DNA of 35,842 bases from an uncultured Pelagibacteraceae bacterium (GTDB lineage Bacteria; Pseudomonadota; Alphaproteobacteria; Pelagibacterales; Pelagibacteraceae): NCBI GenBank assembly GCA_902546795.1, contig CACCLK010000010.1, forward strand, positions 1 to 35,842, in the 5' to 3' direction. Below, piece after piece: positions 12,232-19,672 of this stretch. Position numbers and translations under genes: made by a program. The notes beneath the pieces were generated by a model. The model worked only from the letters and a program-made list of their open reading frames with translations. It did not search any database and had not been told where the DNA came from. Positions within the stretch are counted from its first letter, which is position 1; the number at the start of each line of letters is the position of its first letter.

Positions 12232-15099
12232 TTATGCTGCTTCGTCTTTATATTCGTCCATTGAAGGACAAGAACAAACTAAATTTCTATCGCCGTAAAC
12301 ATTGTCAACTCTAGCAACTGGCGCCCAATACTTATTATGTTTTACATACTCGTTTGGAAACGCTGCTTCTTCTCTTGAATATTTATGGGTCCATTCATTG
12401 GATGATAGCTCGATATAAGTGTGAGGAGCATTTTTAAGTGGATTATCAATTTTGTCAAATTTTGAGGACTCAACTAATTCAATTTCTTTTTTAATCTTGA
12501 TCAGTGCATTACAGAATTTATCAATTTCCTCTAGATTTTCACTTTCTGTTGGCTCAATCATTATTGTACCTGCAACTGGCCATGACATTGTTGGGGCATG
12601 ATATCCAAAATCTATTAATCTTTTAGCAAGATCTTCCTCTGAAATGCCCGAACTTGCCTTAATAGGTCTAATATCAATGATGCACTCATGAGCAACATTT
12701 CCATTTTTACCTGTGTACAAAACCTTATAATCTTTAGATAGTTTTTTAGATATATAGTTAGCGTTTAAAATTGATACTTGGGAGGCTTTTTTTAATCCTT
12801 CGGCTCCCATCATTTTAATATACATCCAAGAAATTGGAAGAATACTTGAGCTTCCCCAAGGTGCTGCTGAAACTGCTCCCATTCCTTTTTTAGGTCCAGC
12901 TTCTTTAATAATTTCGTGCGTTGGTAAAAAATCAGCTAAATGTTTAGCACATGCGATTGGTCCCATACCTGGTCCTCCACCACCATGCGGAATGCAAAAT
13001 GTTTTATGTAAATTTATGTGACAAACATCTGGTCCAAATTTTCCAGGCTTAGCAACTCCCACTAAAGCGTTCAAATTTGCCCCATCCATATAAACTTGAC
13101 CACCTTGTTTATGTATTATATCACAAATTTCGATTATCTTTTCTTCAAAGACTCCATGTGTCGAAGGGTAAGTAACCATTAAAGCAGCTAAATCTTTGGA
13201 GTATTTTTCTGCTTTATTTTTAAGATCATTTATATCTACATTTCCATCTTCATCGCAATTAACTACAACAACTTTCATTCCACACATTTGAGCACTTGCT
13301 GGGTTAGTTCCGTGTGCTGAGTTAGGAATTAGACATACGTTTCTATTCCCTTGATTATTTTCTTTATGGAATTTTCTTATAGTCATAAGACCAGCATACT
13401 CACCTTGTGCTCCAGAGTTAGGTTGCAATGATACCGCGTCATAACCAGTGATCTCTTTCAAATCATTGATCAGATCACTGTAAAGTTCTCTATAACCTTC
13501 CATTTGATCTGTCGGCACAAAAGGATGGGGTAATGAAAACTCTTTCCAAGTAATGGGTATTAGTTCTGCTGTTGCGTTCAGCTTCATTGTACAAGAACCA
13601 AGAGCTATCATTGACCTATTTAATGCAATGTCACAGTCTTCGAGTCTCTTTAAATATCTTAGCATTTCCGTTTCAGAGTGGTACTTATTAAAAACTGGGT
13701 GGGTAAGATATTTTGAGCTTCTTAATAGGTTTTTCGGTAAATTATTTAATTCCACTTTTATATCTTGTTTAACTATTTTTGATATACCAAAAATTTTGAG
13801 CAAAACATTTACATCATTTAATTTTTTCGCTTCATCAAAGGCCACTGAAATATTTTTACTGTCCACTTTTCTTAAATTAATATTTTCTTTTAAAGCAGTT
13901 TTGTAAATTGAGTCAGTTTTGTTACCGGTATTTATAGTAATCGTATCAAAAAAATAGTCTGATAAAATTTTATAACCACCTTTTTTTATTTCATCTGCAA
14001 AAATTTTTGCTAATTTTGAGGTTCTATTAGCTATTTTTAGAATTCCCTCTGGTCCATGATAAATTGCAAAAGCCGCTGAAATAATCGCGAGTAATGCTTG
14101 AGCGGTACAAATGTTACTTGTGGCTTTATCTCTTCTTATATGTTGCTCCCTAGTTTGCAAAGATAATCTGTAAGCCTTCTTTCCATGTCTATCAACTGAA
14201 ACTCCTATTATTCTACCCGGCATTGATCTTTTAAATTCCTCTTTAGTCGCAAAGAAAGCAGCATGCGGCCCACCGTAACCCATTGGTATCCCAAATCTTT
14301 GGGCACTACCAACAGCGATATCTGCACCAAGTTCAGCTGGTGTTTTTAATCTTGCTAAAGCTAATAAGTCACAAACTAAAATTGCTTTTCCATTTTTTTT
14401 GTGAATCTGGCTTATACTCTCGCTAGGATCATCAATTTCGCCTAACGTACCGGGATAAGACAACACCCCACAAATTATATCCTCATTTATACTTGTTAAT
14501 TCTTTTTTTTCATCTCCAATAATTAATTCTAATCCAAAAGGCTCTGTTCTGGTTTTGATCAGATCGATTGTTTGAGGGTTACAGTTGCTTGAAATAAATA
14601 TTTTTTTTGAATTAGTCCTGTCTAATCTTTGACTTAACCCTACTGCTTCTGCAGCAGCTGTGGACTCGTCCAACAAAGAAGCATTTGCAATATCCATTCC
14701 AGTCAGATCAATAATCAATTGCTGAAAATTAAGAAGCATTTCAAGTCTTCCTTGGGCCACTTCTGGTTGATAAGGTGTATAAGAAGTGTACCACCCTGGG
14801 TTTTCAAGGATATTTCTTAAAATTACATTTGGAGTGATGGAATTGTAGTATCCCATACCAATAAAGTTTCTAAATATTTTATTTTTTTTTGAAATAGATT
14901 TTAATTTTTTTAAAGCATCATTCTCTGATATTGGCTCACTAACTTTTAAATCATCTTTAAGTAAGATTTTTTCGGGTACAGTGTTGGTCATTAAATCGTC
15001 GAGTGATTTGTATCCAACATATTCTAACATTTTCAACTGTTCCTCCTTAGAGGGGCCTATATGTCTTTTTATAAATTCTTTTGAATTATCATCAATCAT
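12232..15099 (-). CDS. gcvP: Glycine dehydrogenase (decarboxylating), P-protein
   Basis: 955 aa; FIKRHIGPS, ENPGWYTSYTPYQPEVAQGRLE, HINLHKTFCIPHGGGGPGMGPI (PLP lysine). Confidence 0.98.
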   Translation of the reverse strand: MIDDNSKEFIKRHIGPSKEEQLKMLEYVGYKSLDDLMTNTVPEKILLKDDLKVSEPISENDALKKLKSISKKNKIFRNFIGMGYYNSITPNVILRNILENPGWYTSYTPYQPEVAQGRLEMLLNFQQLIIDLTGMDIANASLLDESTAAAEAVGLSQRLDRTNSKKIFISSNCNPQTIDLIKTRTEPFGLELIIGDEKKELTSINEDIICGVLSYPGTLGEIDDPSESISQIHKKNGKAILVCDLLALARLKTPAELGADIAVGSAQRFGIPMGYGGPHAAFFATKEEFKRSMPGRIIGVSVDRHGKKAYRLSLQTREQHIRRDKATSNICTAQALLAIISAAFAIYHGPEGILKIANRTSKLAKIFADEIKKGGYKILSDYFFDTITINTGNKTDSIYKTALKENINLRKVDSKNISVAFDEAKKLNDVNVLLKIFGISKIVKQDIKVELNNLPKNLLRSSKYLTHPVFNKYHSETEMLRYLKRLEDCDIALNRSMIALGSCTMKLNATAELIPITWKEFSLPHPFVPTDQMEGYRELYSDLINDLKEITGYDAVSLQPNSGAQGEYAGLMTIRKFHKENNQGNRNVCLIPNSAHGTNPASAQMCGMKVVVVNCDEDGNVDINDLKNKAEKYSKDLAALMVTYPSTHGVFEEKIIEICDIIHKQGGQVYMDGANLNALVGVAKPGKFGPDVCHINLHKTFCIPHGGGGPGMGPIACAKHLADFLPTHEIIKEAGPKKGMGAVSAAPWGSSSILPISWMYIKMMGAEGLKKASQVSILNANYISKKLSKDYKVLYTGKNGNVAHECIIDIRPIKASSGISEEDLAKRLIDFGYHAPTMSWPVAGTIMIEPTESENLEEIDKFCNALIKIKKEIELVESSKFDKIDNPLKNAPHTYIELSSNEWTHKYSREEAAFPNEYVKHNKYWAPVARVDNVYGDRNLVCSCPSMDEYKDEAA

Positions 15100-15480
15100 T
15101 TAATTTGGATTCTCCTTACAAAACTTGTCATACTCATCTTTTGACATCAATGAGTCAAATTCTCCTTTATCTTTTATTTTTAATTTAAAAAACCAACTTG
15201 CACCTTCTGGATCTGAGTTAACGCTACCTGGATCATCTGCTATAGATTTGTTCCCTTCAGTAATTTCTCCTGCGATTGGTGAGTAAACATCACTTGCTGC
15301 TTTAGTAGATTCAACAACTGCTGCTTGGCCCTCTTTCTCAACAGACTTTCCTGCATCTGGTACTTCAACGAAAACAATGTCGCCAAGCATTTCTGTTGCA
15401 TGTTTTGTTATACCAACCGTTGCAACATCACCCTCTAACGAGACCCATTCGTGTTTCTTTGAAAATTTTTTTTCACTCAT
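15100..15480 (-). CDS. gcvH: Glycine cleavage system H protein
   Basis: [34 protein letters not shown] lipoylation site, [10 protein letters not shown]. Confidence 0.98.
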
Positions 15481-15494
15481 ATTTTCCTCTAATT

Positions 15495-16589
15495 CTACTT
15501 AACATAGCTTTTTTTGTAAAACGGGAGTTGAGAAATTTTACCCCCATATTTTTTCCCTCTTACTTCAAGCTTAATTGTTGTCCCAACCTCTGCAAATTTA
15601 GATTTAACATATCCCATTGCAACTGGTGCGTTTACACTTGGACCAAAAGTTCCGCTAGTGACGAATCCTATCTCATTATCATCAGAGGAATAAATTTTAG
15701 TGCTTTCTCTCGCTATGATTTTTCCGTCGGGTTTAATTCCTACTCTAATTTTATCACTGCCATTAATTAATAAATTTTTAATCTTTTCCCAACCATTAAA
15801 GCCCCCGACTTCTTTTCTTTTTTTTGCAATGGCCCATTTTAAATTAGCTTCTATTGGATTTATTTGTTCGTTAAGGTCATGACCATACAAACACAGGCCT
15901 GCCTCTAATCTTAATGTGTCTCTTGCCCCTAATCCAATTGGTTTGACTTTATTCGAAATCAAGAAGTCAATCAATTTTTCAACTTTTTTATTTGGAATAG
16001 AAATTTCAAAACCATCCTCACCCGTATAACCTGATCTCGTGATATATAAATTTTCACCATCGTAATTGAAATTATTGCCAGTCATAAATTTTAACTTAGA
16101 GACACCTTGCACAAGTTTTTCTAAAATTTCAACGGATTTTGGACCTTGTAAAGCTATTAATGATAAATCGTTATTTAAAAGATACTTGTGATTTTTTTTT
16201 AAAAATTGTGAAATTTGTTTAATGTCATTTTCCTTACATGCCGCATTTAAAATAATACAAAATCCTTTTTCAGTTTTTGTTACGATTAAATCATCAATTA
16301 TGCCGCCGTCATTGTTAAGTAAAAAAGAATATTTAGAGTGATTAATTTTTAAAGATTTTAAATCTGCTGGTATTATTTTTTCTAATGCTTCGGTCAAAGT
16401 TTCATCTCCCTCTAAAAAAAATTGTCCCATGTGAGAAACATCAAAAAAACCAGCATGTGTTCTTGTGGAAATATGTTCTTTAACTATGCCATCCTTATAT
16501 TGAATAGGCATTTCATAACCTGCAAAAGGAACAAATTTTGCTCCTAAATTTTTGTGATAATTGTATAAAGCTGTTTTTTGCGTCTCCAT
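15495..16589 (-). CDS. gcvT: Glycine cleavage system T protein (aminomethyltransferase)
   Basis: [66 protein letters not shown]. Confidence 0.97.
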
Positions 16590-16604
16590 AATAACTCTTC
16601 TTTT

Positions 16605-16770
16605 TTTACCCCATCTGTCTAGGTACCTGAGAGATTTAATCCTTCGGTGAGGCTAAGCCTACTTTCCAGAGTTATTACGGTAACGGTCCTTTTGCCTGAG
16701 AGTTTCCGGGGTGGTTGCTCCTTCGGCGCCAATATTTGGTCTCTCCCGTTACGAGGGGACTCTCCCCCAA
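16605..16770 (-). promoter_or_regulatory. Tandem (two-aptamer) glycine riboswitch upstream of gcvT
   Basis: Minus-strand RNA: CGUAACGGGAGAGACC...GCGCCGAAGGAGCAACC...AAACUCUCAGGCAAAAGGACCGUUACCG (aptamer 1), then AACUCUGGAAAGU...CACCGAAGGAUUAAAUCUCUCAGGUACCUAGACAGA (aptamer 2). Both carry the GCCGAAGG/ACCGAAGG and CUCAGG conserved cores. Confidence 0.96.
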
Positions 16771-16786
16771 ATAACCTAAAATGTCA

Positions 16787-16792
16787 ATTATA
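16787..16792 (-). promoter_or_regulatory. Candidate -10 box (TATAAT) for the riboswitch/gcv transcript
   Basis: Minus-strand TATAAT immediately 3' of the upstream EamA gene stop and about 20 nt before the riboswitch. Sequence match only. Confidence 0.4.
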
Positions 16793-18990: not shown

Positions 18991-19051
18991 AATTATAGGA
19001 TAAAATATGATTTATTCCTCATATGTTTATTTATATAAGAAAAATCACATA

Positions 19052-19672
19052 ATGTTAGAACAATTTATAATTTCTATACAAATAATTTTAATTGATATTG
19101 TTATGGCAGCTGATAACGCGATCATAATAGGCCTTATAGCTGCAAATTTTGCTCCTGAAAATAAAAAGAAAATTATTGCATGGGGGGTTGCTGGTGCATT
19201 TATTTTTAGAATATTTTTTGCATTCGGAACTGATGTGATGCTTGAATACGCATGGATTAAAATTCTAGGTGGGTTATTGCTATTATGGATCGTAAATAAT
19301 ATCAGACAAGATTTATTTGGTAAAAACAAAGTAAGATCACCAGCGGTTAAATCAAAAGAACCAGTGTCTTTTTCAACTGGTGTTTATAGAATTTTAGTAG
19401 CAGATATAACTTTAAGTTTTGATAACGTTTTAGGCGTTGTTGGGGCTGCAAAAGATTACTACCATCTTATGATTATTGGCTTAATGTTATCTGTATTCTT
19501 AGTTGCTACCCTTGCAACATATTTTGCTAATTACATTCAAAATCATAAATGGTTAGGCTATGTTGGAATTTTTGTAATAATAATTGTAGCTATTCAATTA
19601 ATTGTTGGTGGCTTTATTAATATGGATGTACTCTCAATTAATGAAAAATACGAATTTCTATTCAGTATATAA
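19052..19672 (+). CDS. YjbE/TerC family integral membrane protein
   Basis: IDIVMAADNAIIIGLIAANF and ITLSFDNVLGVVGAAK paired TerC motifs. ORF track starts at 19007; ATG at 19052 (MLEQFIIS) gives the expected N-terminus. Confidence 0.88.
   Translation: MLEQFIISIQIILIDIVMAADNAIIIGLIAANFAPENKKKIIAWGVAGAFIFRIFFAFGTDVMLEYAWIKILGGLLLLWIVNNIRQDLFGKNKVRSPAVKSKEPVSFSTGVYRILVADITLSFDNVLGVVGAAKDYYHLMIIGLMLSVFLVATLATYFANYIQNHKWLGYVGIFVIIIVAIQLIVGGFINMDVLSINEKYEFLFSI

Follow-up and report, generated by a model that had tools for sequence, protein, structure and literature searches.

The inter-aptamer linker as a predicted anti-start strand in the gcvT glycine riboswitch of Pelagibacteraceae

Where does the tandem glycine riboswitch preceding gcvT in Pelagibacteraceae keep its expression platform? 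The question is raised by contig CACCLK010000010.1 of an uncultured Pelagibacteraceae bacterium (assembly GCA_902546795.1), whose positions 1 to 35,842 make up the window, i.e., the whole stretch of DNA analyzed, with the riboswitch and the gcv genes on its minus strand. Two consecutive RF00504 matches of 67.4 bits (aptamer 1, 16674 to 16758; P1 GUAACGG 16752-16746/CCGUUAC 16686-16680) and 41.3 bits (aptamer 2, 16605 to 16679; P1 UCUG 16670-16667/CAGA 16617-16614) exceed the gathering score of 32 bits taken as cut-off, and the gcvT leader element is a tandem member of the glycine riboswitch class. The genes downstream (gcvT, gcvH, and gcvP) belong to glycine metabolism. Sequence comparison and modeled folds make it highly probable that the element acts as a translational ON switch of the gcvTHP operon with the linker between its aptamers as expression platform.

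The candidate anti-start strand is the linker CCGUAAUAACUCU (minus strand, 16668 to 16680; read from 16680 to 16668, CCGTAATAACTCT). Its partner, the start arm AGAGUUAUUAUGG (minus strand, 16586 to 16598; read from 16598 to 16586, AGAGTTATTATGG), comprises a weak Shine-Dalgarno (SD)-like AGAG, a spacer, and the gcvT AUG (ATG at 16589-16587). A preliminary description of this DNA had proposed precisely this complement, and its position, its 13 contiguous pairs without bulges (12 Watson-Crick and one G-U), and the AUG within the 3' arm all proved correct. The duplex energy is -15.8 kcal/mol. An equal linker-start helix arose in 0 of 2,000 dinucleotide shuffles and an equal helix anywhere in the leader in 0 of 1,000, in agreement with the earlier judgment that a chance origin is very unlikely. 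The linker had also been said to touch both P1 helices; the conflict proper is with P1 of aptamer 2, and the overlap with P1 of aptamer 1 amounts to the single terminal base C16680.

Folding of the free transcript (16753-16560) without constraints forms the linker-start helix with a probability of ~1, as expected if the unbound fold masks the AUG. In the same prediction, P1 of aptamer 1 survives (~0.8), contrary to the suggestion that the helix would disrupt this aptamer, and aptamer 2 alone is lost (P1, 0.0). The alternative helix is thus predicted to cover the SD and AUG and to exclude aptamer-2 P1, a result joined by the comparative evidence below. In truncated transcripts, the helix is absent before the start arm has been transcribed, with formation reaching 0.36 at position 16594 and 0.91 at 16587. 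The 92 unique family leaders have a median helix probability of 0.98, and opening the helix costs a median of 8.3 kcal/mol. The minimum free energy (MFE) structure of one leader, L101, holds the helix, and the low helix value obtained for it in the family-wide folding is at odds with that structure and probably reflects an indexing error.

Comparison with relatives carries most of the argument. Searches with RF00504 covered 61 relatives, 397 genomes from the order, and 386 from the class; each leader was scored by its best ungapped linker-start helix (G-U counting half), with linkers and starts exchanged between sequence types as a control. Loss of the complement in relatives with conserved aptamers would have spoken against the preliminary description; instead, all 130 Pelagibacteraceae gcvT tandem riboswitches examined (92 unique linker/start pairs) keep it, with compensatory changes, and their mean score is 11.9 for native pairs versus 7.7 after swapping. 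The lowest score was 10 among 80 gcvT loci retrieved through similarity of the protein, a set that partly overlaps the 130 leaders and in which 46 loci share one identical sequence type. The linker and start of other Alphaproteobacteria (n = 21) show no complement (native 4.9, swapped 4.8). Within the family, the pairing persists in different sequences: the type of the window's genus is AUAAUAACUCU/AGAGUUAUUAUG (the window itself, GUAAUAACUCU), and further types are CAUAUUAACUCU/AGAGUUAAUAUG and AAAUAAACUCU/AGAGUUUAUU. The AUG has shifted 3' in several lineages with the complement retained, as in the types UUGUAAUAACUCU/AGGGUUAUUACAA and AAAUAUUAACUCU/AGAGUUAAUAUUU. One further family leader, L118, keeps the complement (AGUUAAUAUGU) with its AUG followed by UAA; gcvT itself probably begins at the following AUG, which places this start-stop 5' of gcvT.

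The covariation between linker and gcvT start that the preliminary description had proposed to look for across SAR11 riboswitches was found. In a MAFFT alignment of 81 distinct sequences (A1), 92.8% of the cells are paired, versus 35 to 41% after slides of 1 to 3 columns, and changes on both sides occur in 50 cells against a shuffled mean of 18.6, a count that none of 500 shuffles reached. Covarying pair types at the paired columns include UA/AU, GC/GU/AU, and CG/UA/AU. On the gcvT protein tree, the pair type underwent 4 changes at column 9, 1 at column 10, 12 at column 6, 7 at column 5, and 4 at column 4; because this tree is short and its resolution weak, we claim several independent compensatory events and no count of them. 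The pairing is thus conserved despite sequence change and would very likely hold gcvT off until glycine is present. Family conservation, covariation, and fold together speak for the proposal that the linker acts as anti-start with no separate expression platform.

The promoter suggests how the linker became available. TTGACA (16787-16782) and GAGAGT (16764-16759), 17 nt apart, form a predicted minus-strand promoter (16759 to 16787) that places the transcription start near P1 of aptamer 1 with no leader left; the distance from the -10 box to GGGAGAG is 7 to 12 nt in most family loci. SAR11 riboswitch metatranscriptome reads likewise begin either at P1 or within the 15 nt preceding it (PMC5069720), although the start mapped in that study belongs to the riboswitch upstream of glcB, whose reads were linked to gcvT. 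More than 90% of tandem glycine riboswitches have a P0 helix or kink-turn between leader and linker (PMC5666159), a frequent rather than defining trait. Given this promoter position, the leader strand of such a P0/kink-turn would be missing here, and the kink-turn motif AUGA occurs in 0% of family linkers versus 33% of those of other Alphaproteobacteria. With no room for a leader and no kink-turn motif, the linker would be free to serve as anti-start strand. Its lack of P0 and kink-turn is no bar to class membership, since the Neisseria riboswitch is also reported without them (PMC13104608). Two candidate P0 strands were rejected: the upstream GGUUAUU (~16776-16770), also considered as a second partner of the linker, lies in the TTGACA-GAGAGT spacer and should not be transcribed, and the leader GAGAGU is itself the -10 element.

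A further complement joins aptamer 1 to the region directly 3' of aptamer-2 P1. ACCCC in the aptamer-1 P3b loop (minus strand, 16708 to 16712) matches GGGGU (minus strand, 16608 to 16612) with an energy of -7.5 kcal/mol, and these P5 arms change together across Pelagibacteraceae in a list compiled by eye (ACCCC/GGGGU, ACCCA/UGGGU, and ACCCU/AGGGU). A P5 pseudoknot has been described for ON-type glycine riboswitches (PMC13104608), and the one predicted here probably supports the ON state. In the mechanism we propose, aptamer 2 would not be stably folded without glycine, and the linker together with the 5' strand of aptamer-2 P1 would pair with the gcvT SD and AUG upon their transcription, keeping translation off. 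Glycine would let aptamer 2 fold through its UCUG/CAGA P1 and dock on aptamer 1, with P5 as a lock; the linker would then be withdrawn and the exposed AUG translated. We infer the glycine-dependent exchange, its cotranscriptional order, and its ON direction, the last from the riboswitch class and the gene. Glycine riboswitches are ON switches for glycine-cleavage genes (PMC5666159; PMC13104608).

The glcB riboswitches offer a comparison with paralogs. In the sister genus g6, glcB leaders (L093, L102, L105, L112, and others) have a linker-start pairing of different sequence, GCAUAACACUCU/AGUGCUAUGC, with one conserved A-C mismatch, and the predicted fold of most of them contains 6 to 10 linker-start pairs and a paired AUG. 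By sequence and modeled fold, the g6 glcB riboswitch shares the linker-start design of gcvT, and we count it in favor of the linker as platform. The glcB leaders of the window's own genus (L028, L029, L030, L111, and L149) lack linker-start pairing. In these leaders, the 3' side of aptamer 2 offers the start region an alternative partner (GGUACCGAU/AUUGGUGCU, 8 to 9 pairs), with a clearly supportive fold in L029 only. Paralogous glycine switches of one genus thus seem to use different platforms.

Several observations weigh against a linker-based ON switch. The compensatory events that are independent are modest in number, as the both-side changes were counted in cells rather than events and the swap at column 9 may represent one or two events; moreover, the AUG alone fixes three columns in most sequences. 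By base pairing, the OFF fold (-49.1 kcal/mol) is favored by ~14.5 kcal/mol over an ON-like fold with aptamer-2 P1 formed and the SD and AUG open (-34.6 kcal/mol), a figure that leaves out P5, glycine, and docking. In the model, P5 (-7.5 kcal/mol), two glycines, and docking must cover this difference, or the decision would be kinetic. By base-pairing energies alone, the 4-bp P1 of aptamer 2 could also coexist with the outer 9 to 10 bp of the helix, so P1 formation is probably not enough to release the start, and docking driven by glycine and the P5 pseudoknot would be needed as well. The same coexistence gives substance to the idea that the helix constitutively brakes gcvT translation or affects mRNA stability and is not switched by glycine: aptamer-2 P1 and the outer helix can be combined in a permitted secondary structure of -36.6 kcal/mol MFE. 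We regard this as improbable, given that the fully paired helix takes in UCU of aptamer-2 P1 and excludes that P1 (0.0), and that a mere brake would render pointless a conserved two-aptamer glycine sensor abutting the start.

Less probable still is a default helix combined with a glycine effect that either shuts the gene off or operates at the level of transcription. OFF glycine riboswitches are known from Na:alanine symporter genes (PMC13104608), but the gene here is gcvT, whose glycine riboswitches activate, and the P5 complement with its CCC/GGG tracts is an ON-type feature. As for transcription, only ~20 nt, mostly A, separate aptamer 2 from the AUG, and no terminator-like hairpin with U-run was seen there, although no dedicated terminator scan was run. 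That the complement is a by-product of a linker conserved for aptamer folding and a start conserved for translation, or plain chance, is hardly credible. Both arms are indeed strongly conserved inside the window's genus, but covariation already contradicts this explanation, the shifted AUG register and the shuffles speak against it, and the 21 other Alphaproteobacteria lack the complement.

Known systems place the proposed linker switch in context. The Bacillus subtilis gcvT tandem, a transcriptional ON switch of the same RF00504 class (PMC5666159), likewise has two aptamers ~10 nt apart upstream of gcvT, whereas the window's element lacks the leader-linker P0/kink-turn and would act translationally through its linker, without a separate platform beyond the 3' end of aptamer 2. 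The nearest system described in the literature compared is the Neisseria gonorrhoeae gcvT tandem (PMC13104608), a translational ON switch reported without kink-turn/P0, with a possible P5 and a start masked in the absence of glycine; its mask is the aptamer-2 pocket rather than the linker and 5' side of aptamer-2 P1. The SAR11 gcvT and glcB glycine riboswitches reported earlier (Tripp et al. 2009, cited in PMC2704228; PMC2211319; PMC5069720) come from this clade and are the same elements; their aptamers were already known. In the literature compared (Tripp et al. 2009 excepted), a linker-start platform with the linker as anti-start is undescribed. The guanidine-II riboswitch (PMC7544219), in which the ligand is proposed to bring two elements together, freeing the SD from an anti-SD and promoting translation, is alike in mechanism only, RNA and ligand being unrelated. 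In the Pelagibacter SAM-II/SAM-V tandem (PMC11508383), the inter-aptamer linker of the same organisms is also regulatory, although it inactivates the upstream aptamer and masking of an AUG is not shown there.

The operon itself comprises gcvT (15495 to 16589; glycine cleavage system aminomethyltransferase, NF010093/TIGR00528), gcvH (15100 to 15480; TIGR00527), and gcvP (12232 to 15099; TIGR00461), all on the minus strand with matches above cut-off. Elsewhere, an open reading frame on the plus strand (19007-19672) matches a YjbE-family putative metal transport protein above cut-off. Its NCBI family name says riboswitch-linked; nonetheless, Glycine is the sole Rfam match at gathering score in the whole window.

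SAR11 bacteria rank among the ocean's most abundant cells, possess few regulators, and have a reported dependence on outside glycine/serine. We lean toward the view that the Pelagibacteraceae tandem dropped leader and kink-turn and reused the freed linker as its entire platform, in a design that recurs in gcvT and, with another sequence, in glcB. Aptamer docking would be the readout, since docking would be incompatible with a linker held in a rigid helix at the AUG. This reading names the expression platform of the SAR11 glycine-cleavage switch base by base. It also suggests a possible reason for having two aptamers: if the linker is the switch, the signal could be docking itself, a possibility relevant to the long debate over why glycine riboswitches are arranged in tandem.
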